A DNA stretch of 64,000 bases from Gammaproteobacteria bacterium (GTDB taxonomy: Bacteria; Pseudomonadota; Gammaproteobacteria; SZUA-152), in NCBI GenBank assembly GCA_029882975.1, contig JAOUJW010000004.1, forward strand, positions 62,001-126,000, in the 5' to 3' direction. A program made the position numbers and the translations under genes. This document shows positions 3,950-24,250 of this stretch, piece after piece. Each line of letters opens with the position of its first letter. Position 1 is the stretch's first letter. Below the pieces are notes generated by a model. The model was not told the origin of the DNA. It worked only from the letters and a program-made list of their open reading frames with translations, and made no database searches.

Positions 3950-4429
3950 TTAAACAATTTTGGGTTTAACTTTGAACAGACCCACGTTCACCTCGGATAC
4001 CACCACGGGTGTGCCGTTGGCGATCTGATCCAATCCAGTGTCGGTGTCTATTTCCACTTTCCAGGTAATGCCGGAGTATTTATGGCTGCCCGGCTGGGTC
4101 AGGCTGATGTCGCTGTTGCACACAAATTCCAGCCCCACAAAATCACTGCTTTGTTTGTTTTGCGGTTCCGACTTGTCTTGAAAGCGTTTCATCGGCCCCC
4201 ACAAAAGCGCGGATAGTACTCCTGTACTGATACCGAAGGTTGCAATCCCTGCCAGCCAGGTTTGAGGTAATATTCCTGCCATTATCAACAAGCCGGTGGC
4301 GACCGCACCCAGGCCGGCGAACAATAAAACAATAGTGCTGAAGCCGGTGATGAGTACTTCCACTGCCAGTAGTAAAAATCCCAGCGCAATCCAAAAACCG
4401 GCTTGGTGTGCTTGAATGTACTCTATCAT
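3950..4429 (-). CDS. NfeD-family membrane protein
   Basis: 159-aa partner of the SPFH protein encoded just upstream. Two or three membrane segments (~10-75) precede a soluble C-terminal domain of about 65 residues (GLEFVCNSDI... to ...VGLFKVKP), corresponding to the NfeD OB-fold that faces SPFH partners. Its ATG overlaps the stop of the stomatin gene (ATGA), so the two are translationally coupled. The short-NfeD/SPFH pair is a widespread membrane microdomain quality-control unit. Confidence 0.9.
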   Translation of the reverse strand: MIEYIQAHQAGFWIALGFLLLAVEVLITGFSTIVLLFAGLGAVATGLLIMAGILPQTWLAGIATFGISTGVLSALLWGPMKRFQDKSEPQNKQSSDFVGLEFVCNSDISLTQPGSHKYSGITWKVEIDTDTGLDQIANGTPVVVSEVNVGLFKVKPKIV

Positions 4430-5376
4430 TGTGTCGTTCCGCCGCTTTGGTTGAGGCGGTTAATAATGGTCATGGCTTCCGTTACGATACTGGCAGCACC
4501 GGTATTATTGTCCGGCAACAGCACCACGGATGACTCTCTGGCGATAGCCTCTTTAGCGTCAATGGCCCGACCCGCCAGATCCAATTGAATGGCTTTTTGG
4601 CCTTCTTCGGTTTTTGCTACATTACCTACCACTTCCAGAGCCTTGGCTTTGGCGTCCGCAACCGCAATGATGGCTTGGGCCTCACCCTCGGCCTTAAGAA
4701 TTTGTTCGGCTTTGTCTGCCTCCGCAGCCAGTACTCGGGCTCGTTTGTCGCCCTCGGCGCGGTTGATGGATGACTGGCGTTCACCTTCTGATTCCAGTAT
4801 GACGGCACGTTTTTCCCGTTCCGCTTTCATTTGTCGTTCCATCGCTTCCAGTACAGAGCGGGGTGGTTCGATATCTTTGATCTCATAACGCAGGACCTGT
4901 ACGCCCCAGGGTGCGGAGGCTTCATTGATGGCGCTGACAATATTGGTGTTGAGGCTCTCGCGTTCTTCAAAGGTTTTGTCCAGATCGATTTTACCGATTT
5001 CCGAACGCATGGTGGTCTGGGCCAATTGGGTGACGGCGTAGCGGTAGTTGTCTACGCCATAAGAGGCTCTATAAGGATCCAAAACCTTGATGTACAAAAC
5101 ACCGTCCACCACCAGTTGGATATTGTCCTTGGTTATAGCGGCTTGGCTGGGAACATCCAGCGCTTGTTCCTTCAAGGTGCGGTCGTAGGCTACTTTATCG
5201 ATAAACGGTACAATGAAGTTCAGACCTGCTTCCATGGATTTGTTGTACTTACCAAAGCGTTCCACTACATAAGCCATGTTTTGGGGTACAAATTTGATTG
5301 AGGATTTAACCAGGATAATCAGCAGGATGGCGAGTCCTACCCAAAAACTGAAAACAATATCCAGAATATCAACCAT
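4426..5376 (-). CDS. SPFH/Band 7 stomatin-like protein (QmcA type)
   Basis: 316 aa. One N-terminal transmembrane anchor (~10-25) is followed by the Band 7 domain (VVERFGKYNKSMEAGLNFIVP through DIEPPRSV), a long Ala/Glu/Lys-rich coiled coil (~185-255) and a C-terminal tail. This is the arrangement of E. coli QmcA. It oligomerises in the inner membrane and scaffolds microdomains and protease regulation. First gene of a two-gene operon with nfeD. Confidence 0.93.
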   Translation of the reverse strand: MVDILDIVFSFWVGLAILLIILVKSSIKFVPQNMAYVVERFGKYNKSMEAGLNFIVPFIDKVAYDRTLKEQALDVPSQAAITKDNIQLVVDGVLYIKVLDPYRASYGVDNYRYAVTQLAQTTMRSEIGKIDLDKTFEERESLNTNIVSAINEASAPWGVQVLRYEIKDIEPPRSVLEAMERQMKAEREKRAVILESEGERQSSINRAEGDKRARVLAAEADKAEQILKAEGEAQAIIAVADAKAKALEVVGNVAKTEEGQKAIQLDLAGRAIDAKEAIARESSVVLLPDNNTGAASIVTEAMTIINRLNQSGGTTQ

Positions 5377-5523
5377 TTTTTTGTCCTTCTTTTAATTTGT
5401 TGAAATAATTATATGCGCTTTTTACGAAATTTAAACGCTTGGGGCTTGAATCACCCGCTTTTCCGTAAGACATCCGCCAATCAATTTTGTTCAGTTGCTA
5501 CGGAATGTGATAGGAAGGAAGAA

Positions 5524-9603: not shown

Positions 9604-9714
9604 GCGGTTGGTTTTGTTGAAGAAAGTATTTCGATGGAATAAAAACGGTTGGCAGCCGTTTATTGGACATGGACGCGGCCTGATGTGGCACAGTTTAACC
9701 GGAAGGGGGCGTTT

Positions 9715-10251
9715 TTGTTCAGGACATCGTTAACATCGGAGCAACAGCTACTGCTGGTGGAGTGTATCCCCCATTTGCGGGCCTATGCTCGTTCTTTAAA
9801 CCGCCATCCGGAATCGGCTGACGATCTGGTACAAGACTGCCTGTCGCGTGCTGTGGAAAAAATGCATCAATGGCAACCGGGTTCCAATATGCGAGCCTGG
9901 TTGTTTTCCATTATGCACAATATGCATGTGGATCGCATAAAACGTGATGTTAACGGCCCGACCTTTGTTTCCAGTGATGAATATAGTGCAGTCCTGAGCG
10001 CGGTCAGCAGCGGTGCTAATCCTGAGATCGCGCCTATGATGGACGATTTGGAACGGGCCTTGGACGGTTTGGCTCCCGAGCAGCGGGAGGTGATTCACCT
10101 GGTGTGTATGGAGGAGTTGAAATACGTGGATGTGGCACATATTCTTCAAGTTCCCGTAGGTACGGTGATGTCACGATTAAGTCGTGCCCGGGAACAGCTG
10201 CGGGCTATGATGTTTGATAACAAGCCAAACAATCTGAGGAGGGTCAAATGA
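9715..10251 (+). CDS. ECF-type RNA polymerase sigma factor
   Basis: 178 aa with sigma region 2 (LLVECIPHLRAYARSL, ADDLVQDCLSRAVEKMHQW, NMRAWLFSIMHNMHVDRIKR) and region 4 (LAPEQREVIHLVCMEELKYVDVAHILQVPVGTVMSRLSRAREQL). I place the start at TTG 9715, preceded by AAGGGGG at good spacing; an upstream in-frame GTG at 9685 is the alternative. It overlaps the anti-sigma gene by 4 nt (ATGA), the usual arrangement for a sigma factor held by its membrane anti-sigma. Confidence 0.93.
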   Translation: MFRTSLTSEQQLLLVECIPHLRAYARSLNRHPESADDLVQDCLSRAVEKMHQWQPGSNMRAWLFSIMHNMHVDRIKRDVNGPTFVSSDEYSAVLSAVSSGANPEIAPMMDDLERALDGLAPEQREVIHLVCMEELKYVDVAHILQVPVGTVMSRLSRAREQLRAMMFDNKPNNLRRVK

Positions 10252-11012
10252 GTGAGCAATTAAGACCCGTTTCCGAGGAGGATCTGCATGCGTTTCTGGA
10301 TGGGCAACTGGATTCAGAGCGGCAAGCACAAGTGGTGCGTTGGCTGGAGGATAACCCGCAAGAGAAAATTCGTTTGCAGCAATTGCGGCAGTTAAACCAA
10401 CTACTGCAGTTGCGCCACCGCGAACAGCTGGTGCAGCCCATTCCCAGCAGTATGGAACTGGATTTCAATCCCGGTGTAGGCCAAAAACCCTTACTTATTG
10501 CTGCGTCCGTTACTTGGTTGCTTATTGGTTTGGTCGTGGGGTGGTTATGGCATGGGGATTTGTTGTCAGAGGAAGGTTTGCAAGTCAATTTGGTCCGTCC
10601 TGCTATGGTAGCCCACGCTACATATATACCGGAAGTAGTACATCCGGTGGAGGTGGCAGCGGAACAGGAAGCCCATTTGATTAAATGGCTGTCCAAGCGC
10701 CTGGGCGTAACGGTGCATGCCGCTGACCTTACATCATTGGGCTTTAATTTGGTTGGGGGACGCTTGTTGCCCGCAGGTACTGACCCGGCAGCTCAGTTTA
10801 TGTACGAAAATAATCTGGGCAGACGTTTAACCCTGTACGTGCGCGTCAAAACTGAAGCCGTAGTGGATACTTCGTTTCGGTTTGCGCAAGATCAGGGTAT
10901 CAGTACATTTTACTGGATCGACGGAAACCTGGGGTATGCTTTGTCCGGTGAGCTGACACGGGAGCATCTATTGCAAGTGGCTAATCTCATTTACCGTCAA
11001 TGGGAACCATGA
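10248..11012 (+). CDS. Transmembrane anti-sigma factor
   Basis: 254 aa. The N-terminal cytoplasmic part (EEDLHAFLDGQLDSERQ) is the helical sigma-binding domain common to anti-sigma factors, without the Cys/His zinc site. One transmembrane helix follows (~81-103, ASVTWLLIGLVVGWLWHG), then a periplasmic domain of about 150 residues with no Cys. Coupled to the sigma gene by an ATGA overlap and preceded by GAGGAGGG. It should release the sigma factor on an envelope signal not identifiable here. A hairpin follows the stop. Confidence 0.9.
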   Translation: MSEQLRPVSEEDLHAFLDGQLDSERQAQVVRWLEDNPQEKIRLQQLRQLNQLLQLRHREQLVQPIPSSMELDFNPGVGQKPLLIAASVTWLLIGLVVGWLWHGDLLSEEGLQVNLVRPAMVAHATYIPEVVHPVEVAAEQEAHLIKWLSKRLGVTVHAADLTSLGFNLVGGRLLPAGTDPAAQFMYENNLGRRLTLYVRVKTEAVVDTSFRFAQDQGISTFYWIDGNLGYALSGELTREHLLQVANLIYRQWEP

Positions 11013-11105: not shown

Positions 11106-11573
11106 TTACTTGCCGCTATAGTTCGCAGCCACATATTCCCCGCTCAGGCTCAGAAAAACATATAGGGTTTTTTTACCGGAGTCTTTGATTTTATCGTTGT
11201 TAAAACTGATTACCCACTCCAGTTTTTTACCGAACTTTCTTTTCTCCGCCTTAGCGAGTTTAGCCTGGTTCCAACTGGCGTCTATTTTTCCTTTCTTTAC
11301 CAGCCGCTTGATTTGGGAAAAAGCGGCTTTTTCCGCTTGATCTTGACTCACAGGGCCATGGGCATGCCCGTGGCCGTCATCGTGACCGCTGTCGCCGTGG
11401 CTGTGGCCGCCCTTATCGTTATCATGGCCGTGTCCACTGCCATTGTGTCCTTGGCTTTTATCATCATGGCCGTGTCCATCATTGTCGTGACTGTGGCTAT
11501 GGTTGCCACCGGCCATGACCGGCATGGACACTAGGCCGATTAAAAATAAGCTGATGGTAATTAGCTTTTTCAT
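11106..11573 (-). CDS. His-rich periplasmic DUF6488-like protein
   Basis: 155 aa: signal peptide (cleavage near VMAGG), then a stretch of about 50 residues dominated by His, Asp and Gly (HSHSHDNDGHGHDD and similar), then a conserved domain beginning GPVSQDQAEKAAFSQIKRLVKKGKID and ending TLYVFLSLSGEYVAANYSG, which matches my memory of DUF6488. The His/Asp tract should bind Ni, Co, Zn or Cu in the periplasm. Last gene of the HupE locus, 31 nt after hupE. A GGAGAC-type ribosome site lies upstream. Confidence 0.85.
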   Translation of the reverse strand: MKKLITISLFLIGLVSMPVMAGGNHSHSHDNDGHGHDDKSQGHNGSGHGHDNDKGGHSHGDSGHDDGHGHAHGPVSQDQAEKAAFSQIKRLVKKGKIDASWNQAKLAKAEKRKFGKKLEWVISFNNDKIKDSGKKTLYVFLSLSGEYVAANYSGK

Positions 11574-11604
11574 TTTATGTCTCCTATTTAAAACTTAAAA
11601 AAAA

Positions 11605-12750
11605 TTAAAGACTGTCGTGTACATAAGTTTCAGCATCCGCTCCAGCTTTATCCGCGTCCAAGCGGGCGTAATCGCCACTGACCTTTAAAGTCACGGTGAC
11701 GGCTTTGTTGCTGTTATTTTTCCAATACCATCCATGGGTGCCTTCGAAACTCGCAGTGAGTGTTCCTGTGGATTTGTTTAAAGTATTTTTCTGGAAACTC
11801 TGGAATGAACCCGTACTATCCGCAGCCGGTTCCCCGTGAAAATCAAAAAACAAATCTTTACCGTCGGTTTGCCAGGCATAGCTAAATGTGGCTCCTTGGG
11901 TTAGGTACAGCTTGTACTCCTTGTCGCCTCGCGCCGGTATCAGCACTTCGATAGTGTCGCTCCATGTAAGCTGGTTTTGATCTACCGGTTCCACTGTCGC
12001 TGCAACGGCTGCACCTCCACGCAGTTCTTCATTAGTAGCGTGTTCATAGCCGTGCATTTGCATCAAAAACAAATAGGCTCCTACCACAACCAAACTTGTA
12101 TTCGTTATGCTGCTGAAAGTCTGGAAAAAGTGGCTTTTGCGCCAGGCGGCGATCAATAATAGCATTATTGCCAGGGCACTGATCTGTCCCAATTCTATGC
12201 CCACATTAAAGGAAATAATATTTAGCAAGAGCTGGTCTTCACTCAAGGGCAGTTCCTGCAAACGGGTGGACAGGCCAAAGCCGTGAATGAGCCCCAGGGT
12301 GACGATCATAAACATCATATTGGGCGGATTGACGTTAAAATATTTACGAAAGCCGTCCAGGTTGGCAAAAGCAATATAGCTGACACTCAAGCCGATGATG
12401 GCGTCAATCAGAAAATAATTGAGCTGGATGGCGTTAAAGGTAGCAAAGATCAGGGTGATGCTGTGGCCAACCGTAAAGGCAGTGACATACTTGGCGATGT
12501 CACGAAATGTGGTTAGAAAAAAGATAATCCCAAACACAAAAGCCAGATGGTCATAGCCGGAGAGCATATGCGTGGCACCCAGCCACATATAGCGCAAATT
12601 ACCGCCGGCGATAACGGCCTGTTTTTCTTCTTCAGACATACCGTGCGCAAAAGCCGCACTGCTGAACAAGAGTAAAATGGCGGCGACAAACCAGAAAAAC
12701 ATAAGCGTATTGTCGCGTTTGGGAAACTGGTGGATTTGAAAATACTTCAT
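11605..12750 (-). CDS. HupE/UreJ-family metal permease fused to a periplasmic beta domain
   Basis: 381 aa. After an N-terminal signal-like helix (FFWFVAAILLLFSSAAFAHG) the first ~235 residues form the HupE/UreJ permease: GATHMLSGYDHLAFVFGIIFF, FTVGHSITLIFA, GLIHGFGLS and FNVGIELGQ, with conserved His, Asp and Glu in the membrane. The last ~130 residues are soluble and beta-rich (TWSDTIEVLIPARGDKEYK, GATFSYAWQTDGKDLFFDFHG, HGWYWKNNSNKAVTVTLKV). They resemble the separately encoded 'transmembrane anchor' proteins of metal loci. HupE proteins import nickel or cobalt. Its ATG at 12750 overlaps the stop of the DUF3240 gene by one base (TGATG). Confidence 0.87.
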   Translation of the reverse strand: MKYFQIHQFPKRDNTLMFFWFVAAILLLFSSAAFAHGMSEEEKQAVIAGGNLRYMWLGATHMLSGYDHLAFVFGIIFFLTTFRDIAKYVTAFTVGHSITLIFATFNAIQLNYFLIDAIIGLSVSYIAFANLDGFRKYFNVNPPNMMFMIVTLGLIHGFGLSTRLQELPLSEDQLLLNIISFNVGIELGQISALAIMLLLIAAWRKSHFFQTFSSITNTSLVVVGAYLFLMQMHGYEHATNEELRGGAAVAATVEPVDQNQLTWSDTIEVLIPARGDKEYKLYLTQGATFSYAWQTDGKDLFFDFHGEPAADSTGSFQSFQKNTLNKSTGTLTASFEGTHGWYWKNNSNKAVTVTLKVSGDYARLDADKAGADAETYVHDSL

Positions 12751-13058
12751 CACAGCAAATGCCCTCCCTGTTCCACAGGAGTCACCCAAAAAACGCCTTG
12801 CCCCACACCGGCATCCTGGTCGCGTATGTGTGATAAAACCGAATCCACATGCTCATCCTGCAATAAAATATCAACCCGTACTCTGGGTACATGGCCCACC
12901 GCATCGTCCTTGGCGGCCAAATAGGATTCTTTTTCAATTTCCATACCATGCCCTTCCACCGCGCTGAAACTAAAGCCCGATACCATTTCCATAGACCGCA
13001 ACAATGCAGTCAAATCTTGCTGCACTTGAGTGTGCACAATAATTGTGAGTAATTTCAT
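12750..13058 (-). CDS. DUF3240-type PII-like protein
   Basis: 102-aa ferredoxin-fold protein resembling DUF3240/PII-like small proteins encoded beside heavy-metal transporters: MKLLTIIVHTQVQQDLTALL, GFSFSAVEGHGME, RVRVDILLQDEHVDSVLSHI and the terminal VFWVTPVEQGG. Such proteins are thought to form trimers and to modulate the adjacent transporter. Strong ribosome site AGGAGGAG 5 nt before ATG. Translationally coupled to the HupE fusion, which suggests it regulates that permease. Confidence 0.8.
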   Translation of the reverse strand: MKLLTIIVHTQVQQDLTALLRSMEMVSGFSFSAVEGHGMEIEKESYLAAKDDAVGHVPRVRVDILLQDEHVDSVLSHIRDQDAGVGQGVFWVTPVEQGGHLL

Positions 13059-13123
13059 ATACTCCTCCTGTATTGCAATAATCTAGAACGGCGCTGCTGC
13101 GCCCTAACTGTTTCAATTTCGAG

Positions 13124-13582
13124 TTACTGCAGGGTAACGGGGGGAGCTCTGGAGGGGGGGGTGAAATGGGGGCGCCAACAACGCCGCTGTTTTCCGGTAA
13201 CGAAGCGCGCTTGTCGGGACTTGCTGGGTATTTGTAACAGCAAGATCAACACAAGTATCAATGCCAGCAATGGTGCCTTGGGATTCTCCTTGGAAACCAC
13301 CCCATTCGGACTCACATCACTCTCGGACATCACTTGATCATGGTGTGAATCGTGGGAATCGTCCGAGGATAAATGCGCATTACTGACATGGGTATGGTTA
13401 ACGGAATCATCACTAAGGACTGGGTCAATATTGTCCTCATGAATATGAACTTGCGAATGCTCATGGGCATGACCCAATTGATGTAAATGCAAGGTGGTCT
13501 CCCGAGCACACACCAGGGCCAGGCATACATAGAACACCCAAAAATACAGGGAGAAAGAGGTGTTTTTACCAGACCATTGCAT
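13124..13582 (-). CDS. His-rich membrane protein of the metal locus
   Basis: 152 aa. N-terminal hydrophobic segment (FSLYFWVFYVCLALVCA), then a His/Asp/Ser-rich extracytoplasmic loop (HLHQLGHAHEHSQVHIHED, DDSHDSHHDQ), a second membrane helix (APLLALILVLILLLQI) and a short basic tail ending SRAPPVTLQ, reminiscent of the RAPP endings of small proteins near metal efflux genes. No clear Shine-Dalgarno, so the start is uncertain. Lies 65 nt upstream of the PII-like gene on the same strand. Probably a metal-binding accessory of the locus. Confidence 0.65.
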   Translation of the reverse strand: MQWSGKNTSFSLYFWVFYVCLALVCARETTLHLHQLGHAHEHSQVHIHEDNIDPVLSDDSVNHTHVSNAHLSSDDSHDSHHDQVMSESDVSPNGVVSKENPKAPLLALILVLILLLQIPSKSRQARFVTGKQRRCWRPHFTPPSRAPPVTLQ

Positions 13583-13813: not shown

Positions 13814-15523
13814 TCACCGTGTCACCTGAACGATTTTCGCTACCGATGGAATTCTATTTTCATCGAGTACAAACAGCATATACATACCCGGCGGTGTGGC
13901 GCGATTGTCGAAAAAATTGTAGCCCCAAACGACACCAGGCGTTGTATTGTAGGCGTAAACTTGGATACTGCGAGTATTTTGATCAAAGGAGTGTGTCATA
14001 GAACCCAGCCCGATTAATACGATTTCGCTTATATTGCTTGTGCCATGGTAAAGCAGTGGGAAAGCTTGTTGATTTTTAATGACATCGGGTGCGTAGTCGA
14101 TCACAGGGCGAGTGGGTGAGTCAAGGTAGGGCGGAGAATAGATTTCCATCGTGGGTTGTTCATCGTTGATGCCGGTCGCCCCTCCGCTTCGTCCTCCCGC
14201 CACCAGTACCCGACCATCCGGAAGCAGCAGGGAAACCGTATGGTAGCCTCGGGGCGTGGCCATTTGTCCTGAGGACACCACTGAAAAGTTCTGTTGCGGA
14301 TCGATAAGCAAGGCGTTTTGAGGTTTTTGAGTGTTGGCTTTTGGATGTCCGCCCACAACAAAGATTTTTCCATCCGGCAAAATGGTGGTGGAGGGGTGGT
14401 GGCGTTCGCTATCCAGCGCGACGCGGTGCGTCCAACCGCCGCCGCCAAAGTCAAAGACATCGGCAGATGCCAACTGGCTATCCCTGCCACCTCCGACCAT
14501 CATGATGGCACCTGTTTGATAGCCCGATGCGGTTGGATCGAGCCGTAAAGGCAGCATGAGTGTCGAAGCACCATTGCCTCCGTTTGCCGGGCCGGGACGA
14601 GGTAAGTTAAATTCGGCAAAGTTTCCCCCCAGTGCAGTATTGGCCTGCATCAAAACCGGAGTGGCCGCTTCGCCAAAAATCACAATGTCTTGACCGGTTT
14701 CAGCGCTCCATGGCAATTGGAACACATGTGCGTAATCGGGGTTAAATATGGCTTGTGGCGTTGCGCCCACCGCGGAGATGAGTTCGCGCTCCCCATTGGC
14801 GGGGTTGTAAATCTCTGTGCTGATATTCAACTCCACCGCCTCAGGGATGGGAACGGGCGTATTATTGTATTGTTTTTGGACGACGTCATATCCTCCGGTC
14901 AATAAAATGCGGCCGTCATGCAGCCGAGTGCTGGTTCCATACCACCTTCCACCGCCGAATTTTGGTCCCGACCCTTTAGATAACAAATAACCGGGAACTC
15001 GGTTCCAGCTGTTGGTTGCAGCAGTGAACGTCATATTGTAATTCAGTCCTGACATTTCGGTAGCTGTTTGACCGTCTGCGCCCAGGTAGGCGCTGAACCG
15101 AGTACCGGAAAGGGTGAAAAGCCTGCCATCATCCAGCAGGGTGTGTCCGGAACAAAATAGCATATCGAAGACAAAGGCACTGTTGCCCTGGTTGTCGCTG
15201 AATACACAAGCGCCGGGTTCGCTACATTCCAAGGGGGCGTTTTCCAAGTCTAGGTGGACTGTGTCGGGGAACGGGGCAAGATTGGGTGGAACAGATAATA
15301 CGGCCTCAAAAGGACCGTCGGTCGTTACCGTATTTCCATCACGTTGAGCACTGCCAAAAAACATGATACGCCCATCGGGCAACAGCGTGCCGTGCACGGG
15401 CGACAAGCCTAGGTCAGGTTGCTGACTGTGCTTCAACTGTATTAACGTTGAAAAGCCCTCGGCCGGCAGCGACGAAGACAGGAACAGAGAAGTTGTAAAG
15501 ACAAGACCGAGACCAGGCCGCAT
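13814..15523 (-). CDS. Secreted galactose/glyoxal-oxidase-like copper radical oxidase
   Basis: 569 aa with signal peptide. A seven-bladed kelch-type propeller is followed by the DUF1929 C-terminal domain. The copper radical site is complete: Cys124 (LFCSGHT) and Tyr195 (GGRWYGTS) would form the cross-linked Cys-Tyr cofactor, Tyr427 and His428 (RGYHTVS) and His511 (LGSMTHSFDQ) ligate copper. Spacing follows fungal glyoxal oxidase more than galactose oxidase. It would oxidise primary alcohols or aldehydes with O2 and release H2O2 outside the cell. AGGAGG lies before the ATG. Monocistronic. Confidence 0.88.
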   Translation of the reverse strand: MRPGLGLVFTTSLFLSSSLPAEGFSTLIQLKHSQQPDLGLSPVHGTLLPDGRIMFFGSAQRDGNTVTTDGPFEAVLSVPPNLAPFPDTVHLDLENAPLECSEPGACVFSDNQGNSAFVFDMLFCSGHTLLDDGRLFTLSGTRFSAYLGADGQTATEMSGLNYNMTFTAATNSWNRVPGYLLSKGSGPKFGGGRWYGTSTRLHDGRILLTGGYDVVQKQYNNTPVPIPEAVELNISTEIYNPANGERELISAVGATPQAIFNPDYAHVFQLPWSAETGQDIVIFGEAATPVLMQANTALGGNFAEFNLPRPGPANGGNGASTLMLPLRLDPTASGYQTGAIMMVGGGRDSQLASADVFDFGGGGWTHRVALDSERHHPSTTILPDGKIFVVGGHPKANTQKPQNALLIDPQQNFSVVSSGQMATPRGYHTVSLLLPDGRVLVAGGRSGGATGINDEQPTMEIYSPPYLDSPTRPVIDYAPDVIKNQQAFPLLYHGTSNISEIVLIGLGSMTHSFDQNTRSIQVYAYNTTPGVVWGYNFFDNRATPPGMYMLFVLDENRIPSVAKIVQVTR

Positions 15524-22651: not shown

Positions 22652-22831
22652 GCCAAACTCCGGTCGCTCATCAATGCAAGGATTATCGATTCAGAATAAT
22701 GATAAGTACAATCGTTTATTAGTATGAAAAACATAGGTATTACCAATTTACCTCTTAGCCTTAAAGCTATGGGGCGTATAGGCCGAAGTAGCCAGTGAGT
22801 GTGCAATTTAAATGGTCCGGTCGAGGTAGAA

Positions 22832-24250
22832 ATGTCTTTTATAAACAAGCTCTTGCTGGCTTATTTAAGCCTGAGCCTGTTGGCTTGTGGTGGCGTAGAC
22901 AGCAAACGGATGATGTCCCCGAGCAGCATAATCGCGGGAAAACAGCATGTCATGTTGGTATTGAAACAAAAGGGCGTGAAGGATGGCGACGAGATCGTTG
23001 TCCGTTTTGGCAGTCACTCTCTGTATGAAGGTCGATACGACCGCAAAGGCTCATCAGGGGATAAACTCAGCCTGTTGACACAAGTTGCACACAATCATCG
23101 AAGCTATCTCAATTTATCGTACGACAGTATTCGTGCCGTGTATCTGCCGCGTGAGGCCGAGGCGGTAAAGCGCAAAATGGCTGAAACCAAACAACAGCAC
23201 TTGAGCGAAAATCTGCTGCGCGAAGGTATTCGTGATAATCAGGGCGATAAAGTCCGCCAGGCGGTGAAGCAGGGCGCGGCCCTGAATCCGAACACGTACC
23301 GCACACCGTTGCTGGAAGCGGCGAGTATTGAAAACCGCGCCGATATTATTCGGCTGTTGGCGCGACTGGGTGCAAAGCCTAACCATACGGACAAGAATGG
23401 GCGTACACCCTTACATGCCGCCATCCAAATGCAGCACTTTGACAATGCGCGGGCTTTGATCGAGGCCGGGGCGGACCCTATGTTTCGTTCTTCGTCCAAC
23501 GGTCTGCCGCCAGCCGTTGAGGCATTTACGGGTTTGCGCTGGGCCAACAAAGAGCAGCTAGAGGCCATAACGGCGTTTGTGGACTATCTTGTGAAAGAAA
23601 AACACGTCGACCCGAACGTGCAGTGGGAGGACCCGGTTTATAAGGCAGACAACGCTCTGGGAATGAGCAATGAACGTTTGCTGTTGTTGTCTCAAAAAGA
23701 TTGCTTGGCCTTATTGGATAAGCATTCCGTACAATATGAACTGTTGGACAACACCAAGGGCGTTGGTATTCCATTGCGGTTGAAATCCACAGTGGCCGGT
23801 GTGGCTTATCGTCACACCGGGAACTCCAAAAAATTTTCCGTTATGGATTGTCGGCTGGTGGTTGCTTTAATTGGTATCGGGCCCGTATTGCAAAAATACA
23901 ATATTGTGGACATACAACACATGCGTGCTTATGCTCCCGATGCGCGCATCGGCGGCAAAGGCAATGTCAGTGGTCACAGTTTTGCCTTGGCTATCGATTT
24001 TGCCGTGGCAACCACCTCGGAGGGTGACGAGTACAGTGTGGTAGAAGATTGGACGGATCGTCGCCGTGGGGTCAGCCCTTGCGAAGCGCAAGACGGCGAT
24101 GGTGAAAAACAAATCCTGTTGCGTCAACTGATATGCGATATTAATAAACAAGGCTTGTTCCACTGGGTATTAACACCGCATTATAACAAAGCCCACCACG
24201 ACCACTTTCACATCGAATTGCGTGACGGTGGCGGTGAGTTTATGTCATAA
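22832..24250 (+). CDS. Lipoprotein with ankyrin repeats and a C-terminal LAS/extensin-like peptidase domain
   Basis: 472 aa. Signal II lipobox LLAC with Cys19. An N-terminal beta domain (HVMLVLKQKGVKDGDEIVV) is followed by two or three ankyrin repeats (~145-220: YRTPLLEAASIENRADIIRL, NGRTPLHAAIQMQHFDNARA). The last ~130 residues match the extensin-like/LAS metallopeptidase fold: GHSFALAID (His382-x6-Asp389) and HDHFH (His458, His460) supply the zinc ligands. Probably an envelope-anchored murein endopeptidase or carboxypeptidase. GAGGT lies 6 nt before ATG 22832. Divergent from gor. Confidence 0.82.
   Translation: MSFINKLLLAYLSLSLLACGGVDSKRMMSPSSIIAGKQHVMLVLKQKGVKDGDEIVVRFGSHSLYEGRYDRKGSSGDKLSLLTQVAHNHRSYLNLSYDSIRAVYLPREAEAVKRKMAETKQQHLSENLLREGIRDNQGDKVRQAVKQGAALNPNTYRTPLLEAASIENRADIIRLLARLGAKPNHTDKNGRTPLHAAIQMQHFDNARALIEAGADPMFRSSSNGLPPAVEAFTGLRWANKEQLEAITAFVDYLVKEKHVDPNVQWEDPVYKADNALGMSNERLLLLSQKDCLALLDKHSVQYELLDNTKGVGIPLRLKSTVAGVAYRHTGNSKKFSVMDCRLVVALIGIGPVLQKYNIVDIQHMRAYAPDARIGGKGNVSGHSFALAIDFAVATTSEGDEYSVVEDWTDRRRGVSPCEAQDGDGEKQILLRQLICDINKQGLFHWVLTPHYNKAHHDHFHIELRDGGGEFMS

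Follow-up and report, generated by a model that had tools for sequence, protein, structure and literature searches.

We analysed a 64,000-nucleotide stretch of a gammaproteobacterial contig (JAOUJW010000004.1), hereafter called the window. Four genes lie together at positions 11106-13582, all of them on the minus strand and read from 13582 toward 11106. An earlier note on this DNA had described a four-gene, His-rich metal operon, and the four ORFs were confirmed. The first (13124-13582, minus) encodes a His-rich protein of 152 amino acids, here called the leader, whose translation matched no family in Pfam or NCBIfam. It is followed by a DUF3240/PII-like protein of 102 amino acids (12750-13058, minus) that matches PF11582 (E 6e-14, 52.3 bits against a cut-off of 21) and PF00543 (E 2e-10, 41.6 bits, cut-off 25) in Pfam and, in a sequence search, distant PII structures. 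The third gene (11605-12750, minus) encodes a permease of 381 amino acids, of which residues 54-206 form the HupE_UreJ_2 domain (PF13795, E 6e-51, 172.6 bits, cut-off 24.5); its Pfam score against the HupE_UreJ family PF04955, 16.3 bits, is below the cut-off of 23. The last gene (11106-11573, minus) encodes a secreted His-rich protein of 155 amino acids belonging to DUF6488 (PF20098, E 7e-23, 81 bits, cut-off 27), on which a literature search found no papers. As the earlier note had seen, the stop of the PII-like gene and the start of HupE have one base in common (TGATG at 12750), so the two are probably translationally coupled. The operon is present once in the genome, and scans for promoters and terminators gave matches at chance level only.

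Several features of the surroundings were observed in passing. The window copy of DUF6488 (11106-11573) carries an enlarged HDG-rich stretch and, at 155 amino acids, compares with about 110-125 in most relatives. Convergent with the operon, an ECF sigma factor gene overlaps that of an anti-sigma-like membrane protein (9649-11012, plus). Directly upstream and on the same strand lies a galactose/glyoxal-oxidase-like kelch protein (13814-15523, minus); proteins of this kind are a copper-radical enzyme family. An unusual pairing of ankyrin repeats with an extensin-like C-terminal domain occurs in a single protein at 22799-24250 (plus).

The permease and its C-terminal domain

The HupE protein carries a C-terminal extension of about 130 residues, which the earlier note had taken for an extra soluble domain. 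Structure prediction bears this out. Residues ~265-359 (11674-11958, minus) form an eight-stranded beta sandwich with pLDDT values of 92-98 over the two models made. When the whole permease was modelled with AlphaFold2, most of these residues had pLDDT 92-96, and the domain modelled alone had a mean pLDDT of 93; the membrane part of the model was of moderate quality only. The best matches of the predicted domain among solved structures were GOLD domains, with a Z score of 12.3 to p24beta1 (1.8 A over 87 residues) and of 12.0 to TMED1, while non-GOLD chains scored 9.9 and below. The domain is thus predicted to adopt a GOLD-type fold, a likeness that covers the fold and implies no function. In the alignment a W, a DxHG motif (H305) and a GWYW motif are invariant and H339 is nearly so. 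A search of the HupE profile against PDB chains by sequence gave no match. From the hydrophobic segments counted by eye, a signal plus six, the domain would be periplasmic. The N-terminus resembles a signal peptide ending in AxA, which is followed by an invariant His36-Gly37, and mature HupE may therefore start with His; only about 18 residues separate the presumed signal peptide from the HupE Pfam domain.

The domain is homologous to proteins that other bacteria encode separately, namely a 'transmembrane anchor protein' on a Pseudomonas plasmid (40% identity over 117 amino acids, E 3e-26) and a nameless gene on a Shewanella plasmid (51% over 96 amino acids, E 2e-36), so the comparison with anchor proteins that had been made from the sequence was right. 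The Shewanella homologue is flanked by HupE and DUF6488 and follows a CusA/CzcA gene. A literature search found no papers on HupE together with the transmembrane anchor protein.

The HupE-GOLD fusion is widespread. A scan of a species-genome collection gave 158 relatives, of which 80 were kept; these were nearly all fused, the search patterns favouring HupE-domain fusion, and came from Gammaproteobacteria, Nitrospirota, Nitrospinota, Mariprofundus, Desulforhopalus and others. In a class sample of 321 Gammaproteobacteria drawn evenly, the fusion was found at 14 places in 13 genomes. Seven close HupE proteins in this sample are without the domain, about nine have it as a separate neighbouring gene, and the rest are distant HupE proteins. 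Within the class the domain is therefore not a standard part of most HupE_UreJ_2 proteins, however widely the fusion has spread.

The four genes are conserved together. Among 87 distinct fused-HupE loci, a His-rich leader stands upstream in 43, a PII gene in 37 and DUF6488 in 61, and the full set of leader, PII, fused HupE and DUF6488 is found in 14. In the other 44 loci the leader was not seen within the available sequence, some contigs or flanks being short. At 19 of the 87 an RND pump gene lies directly ahead of the fused HupE.

The leader family and its RAPP tail

The leader has an N-terminal hydrophobic segment, 13 His ahead of its tail, a second hydrophobic segment and the end ...PPSRAPPVTLQ*. 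The RAPP motif, encoded by AGA GCT CCC CCC at 13139-13150 (minus) and predicted from the conservation of the tail in relatives to be an arrest site, stands four codons plus the stop before the end of the ORF, with the His cluster about 62-113 residues ahead of it. That RAPP arrests ribosomes is established (PMC10951233). The motif is avoided in proteomes and yet occurs near the C-termini of small exported proteins that precede metal genes (PMC12992588).

Counting RAPP among leaders first chosen by RAPP is circular, so that count was not used and was repeated with profiles from which the tail had been left out. Among 48 leader relatives gathered in this way, 46 have RAPP at the end, with another one to six residues after it; of the other two, one has RSPP and one is truncated. 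Outside the conserved positions the relatives are 26-40% identical to the window copy, and besides a few His the RAPP residues are the most conserved of the family. Across the 46 loci the Arg, the Ala and both Pro are each encoded by at least four codons, so selection acts on the peptide and not on the RNA. The same codon variation rules out anti-Shine-Dalgarno codon bias as the cause of the motif.

The leaders fall into two types, each with invariant His. Type-1 leaders, the window's among them, have the second hydrophobic segment roughly one tunnel length ahead of RAPP; type-2 leaders are without a clear second segment. In the class sample, type-1 leaders occur in 33 genomes and type-2 leaders in six, and all six of the latter stand directly before HupE. 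A same-strand leader was found at 12 of the 14 fused-HupE places in the 321 genomes, close upstream at 11 and before an intervening RND operon at one. The other type-1 loci that were fetched all read leader-TolC-MFP-RND (16 of 16, with the RAPP tail in 14), which makes the window resemble an RND operon without its pump genes. PII, HupE or DUF6488 follow further on in four such loci (L136, L138, L143 and L145), and three others (L099, L101 and L102) have the order leader, RND genes, HupE. Of 26 RND proteins read, 17 carry DFG...DGA...VEN, which we take to be the divalent-cation pump motif of the CzcA/CnrA kind, and nine carry GGLAIAIG...VDA, presumably nearer to copper/silver pumps.

Other small ORFs were noted beside this family. 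At L043 two different RAPP leaders lie back to back (4395-4826, minus, and 5015-5464, plus) at the heads of divergent operons, one of TolC-MFP-RND and one of PII-HupE-DUF6488. In Nitrospirota a third His-rich leader family stands directly before fused HupE (L056:366-815, L060:5367-5810), in which RAPP is replaced by SAKT(A/S)SGLSPP, an arrest tail, perhaps, of separate evolutionary origin. Further small ORFs that begin with a hydrophobic stretch and close with RAPP were seen at L096:12188-12619 (minus), L036:8949-9278 and L012:3759-4058 (minus); two of these have Cys pairs and are possibly copper-type CutF-like leaders.

Proposed control of the operon by an arrest leader

We judge it fairly likely that the operon is a metal-homeostasis unit, probably for metal excess, headed by a metal-sensing arrest leader. 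Most likely, the product of the first gene acts as a nascent chain with a regulatory role. On this reading the leader ORF (13582-13124) would be translated and its nascent chain exported via Sec, and with RAPP at the peptidyl-transferase centre the ribosome could pause, as the established action of the motif suggests. From the lengths involved, the His cluster would during the pause be out of the tunnel, at or past the translocon, where a divalent metal bound to it may alter the length of the pause, by analogy with CutF and CruR. The metal would more likely be Ni, Co, Zn or Cd than Cu. The pause would set the expression of the coupled PII-HupE-DUF6488 genes, and HupE with its presumed periplasmic GOLD domain, DUF6488 and the PII-like protein would then handle the metal.

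The RNA between leader and next gene bears on how a pause might act. In the window, the stretch from the arrest site to the start of the PII-like gene (13059-13150, minus), with the Shine-Dalgarno sequence AGGAGGAG at about 13069-13062, folds at -28.3 kcal/mol (z -2.28; four of 200 shuffles as good), and the predicted fold pairs the Ala-Pro-Pro codons of RAPP with the PII-like Shine-Dalgarno, a result that varies with the amount of upstream RNA taken. Should a pause uncover the ribosome-binding site that follows, pairing of an arrest region with its own Shine-Dalgarno would be expected to exceed its pairing with those of other loci, and the two were compared. For type-2 leaders before HupE, own pairing was -8.7 kcal/mol against -7.3 across loci (p=0.0002; p=0.0004 with 11 representatives); four upstream control regions gave p values of 0.39-0.59, and the HupE-DUF6488 junction gave 0.06. 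The consensus RNA structure of the type-2 intergenic regions was a short hairpin only, with three compensated pairs, and the long-range stem failed to align. Own pairing was weak for type-1 leaders before TolC (p=0.015) and not specific across loci for type-1 leaders before PII, the window's arrangement (p=0.55); for that arrangement, the window included, direct Shine-Dalgarno pairing was rejected as a general rule.

For type-2 leaders before HupE, these sequence statistics support a model in which the paused ribosome would cover RNA that otherwise pairs with the next Shine-Dalgarno. Given the p value of 0.55, the dependence of the fold on its 5' limit and an unusual gap, the pause in the window's type may either mask the Shine-Dalgarno or, like CruR, govern transcription termination. 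That gap between leader and PII-like gene (13059-13123) measures 65 nt, compared with about 150 nt for the nearest relatives, and the window copy may be altered, with part of the control region lost.

The direction of control is a separate matter. The earlier note had read the set as a self-contained uptake or sensing system, and an uptake operon shut off by metal would fit if, as for CruR, metal relieved the pause and so led to termination. In R. leguminosarum, hydrogenase depends on HupE as a Ni transporter (cited in PMC12537917), and the gaps between type-1 leaders and PII (median 149 nt) are like the 162-nt cruR gap, without specific Shine-Dalgarno pairing. The same leader family, however, heads RND efflux pumps, where shut-off by metal makes little sense, and in Sphingobium exposed to 10 mM Ni the most induced gene is of the HupE/UreJ kind and lies next to an RND pump (PMC5557971). 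We therefore favour control that metal switches on and regard the CruR direction as unlikely. The leaders at the head of efflux operons and the fused HupE genes behind RND genes point to metal excess rather than uptake, and the reading as self-contained uptake was not supported.

Nor was the view of the first protein as a membrane-bound capture protein supported. Such a stable His-rich membrane protein would pass captured metal to HupE, with RAPP incidental or structural, and its 13 His and two hydrophobic segments would suit the task; HupE_UreJ_2 proteins with attached metal-binding domains do exist in the anglerases (PMC12537917). A tail kept nearly invariant in otherwise divergent proteins, with its codons free to vary, marks an arrest leader instead, small RAPP proteins encoded ahead of metal genes have been established as arrest leaders (PMC12992588, PMC9426467), and the gene stands at the head of operons and not amid transporter genes, so that we consider the capture role quite unlikely. 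It is very improbable that the leader of a metal-handling operon senses the state of Sec or membrane insertion through a pull on the hydrophobic segment that type-1 leaders have near RAPP, as might be proposed from ApdA and ApdP, arrest peptides with RAPP whose presumed role concerns protein-localization genes (PMC10951233), since the His are conserved, the downstream genes are consistently metal-related and type-2 leaders have no clear second segment.

Relation to known systems and significance

A close known system is CutF of R. capsulatus, whose Pro-rich tail acts in a stalling-like way (PMC9973294). The leader resembles CutF as a small, presumably exported protein with putative metal ligands, a C-terminal Pro-Pro tail and a metal gene immediately downstream, but CutF senses Cu by CxxxC and controls a multicopper oxidase, whereas the window leader family conserves His only and is followed by PII-like, fused HupE, DUF6488 or RND pump genes. 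The CutF tail alone caused no stall in a reporter (PMC9973294), which counts against the arrest-leader reading. CutF-like proteins were selected in that study as those shorter than 150 aa that have an N-terminal signal for export, PP among the final 15 residues and a same-strand gene within 1000 nt. In the window leader the PP at 147-148 of 152 and the gap of 65 nt are within these limits and the export signal was judged by eye; its length of 152 aa from the first ATG is just above the filter, full-length relatives being mostly of 133-153. The window leader gave no match to the DUF2946 Pfam profile, which matched one of 14 relatives at E 0.004, and so falls outside that family; by analogy it nevertheless probably works like CutF or CruR.

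CruR of B. pertussis (PMC9426467) is likewise a metal-responsive leader ORF ending in RAPP, the metal response being here a prediction, but CruR senses copper through CxxC and acts by Rho-dependent termination, which shuts off the operon of a TonB-dependent transporter. In ApdA and ApdP (PMC10951233) the same four residues, RAPP, stand close to the C-terminal end of an ORF that lies upstream; these two serve protein-localization genes and, in contrast to the leader proposed here, are not known as metal sensors. The anglerases Ang-1 and Ang-2 (PMC12537917) resemble the predicted form of the fused permease in having a non-cytoplasmic soluble domain on HupE_UreJ_2 and an N-terminal His after the signal peptide; the anglerase domain, however, is N-terminal and binds metal, whereas that of the window HupE is C-terminal and of predicted GOLD type, and the window HupE has no N-terminal metal-binding domain before its HupE domain. 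PII-NG with czcABC (PMC7726332) also places a PII-like gene within a heavy-metal RND operon, while the window-type PII-like gene is coupled to HupE as well, often without any RND genes.

The claim that the combination is undescribed thus stands in part. RAPP leaders, metal-sensing leaders and PII with czc (PMC7726332) were known, and the link to HupE had been noticed: one sentence of a 2023 paper states that CutF-like proteins with His motifs only, in its SSN clusters 14 and 17, adjoin HupE/UreJ genes (PMC9973294). To our knowledge, the two leader types, the tie to RND operons, the pairing evidence, the GOLD-fold domain with its fusion to the permease, and the complete unit of four genes are new.

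In the literature considered, nascent-chain metal sensing has been shown for copper leaders only, CutF and CruR (PMC9973294, PMC9426467). If the reading is true, a His-only leader before divalent-metal pumps would widen this form of sensing to include Ni, Co, Zn or Cd. The leader is readily testable, being one short gene with a four-residue arrest motif and countable His, and the 'transmembrane anchor' domain, with its predicted GOLD fold, and DUF6488 are now placed with HupE in one conserved set. We propose tentatively, and with slightly more doubt than belief, that His-only RAPP leaders are widespread nascent-chain sensors of divalent metals other than Cu, through which metal would switch on RND pumps and HupE-GOLD permeases directly and in the course of translation, so that in many bacteria of marine and sediment habitats ribosome arrest would join DNA-binding regulators in gating the efflux of heavy metals.
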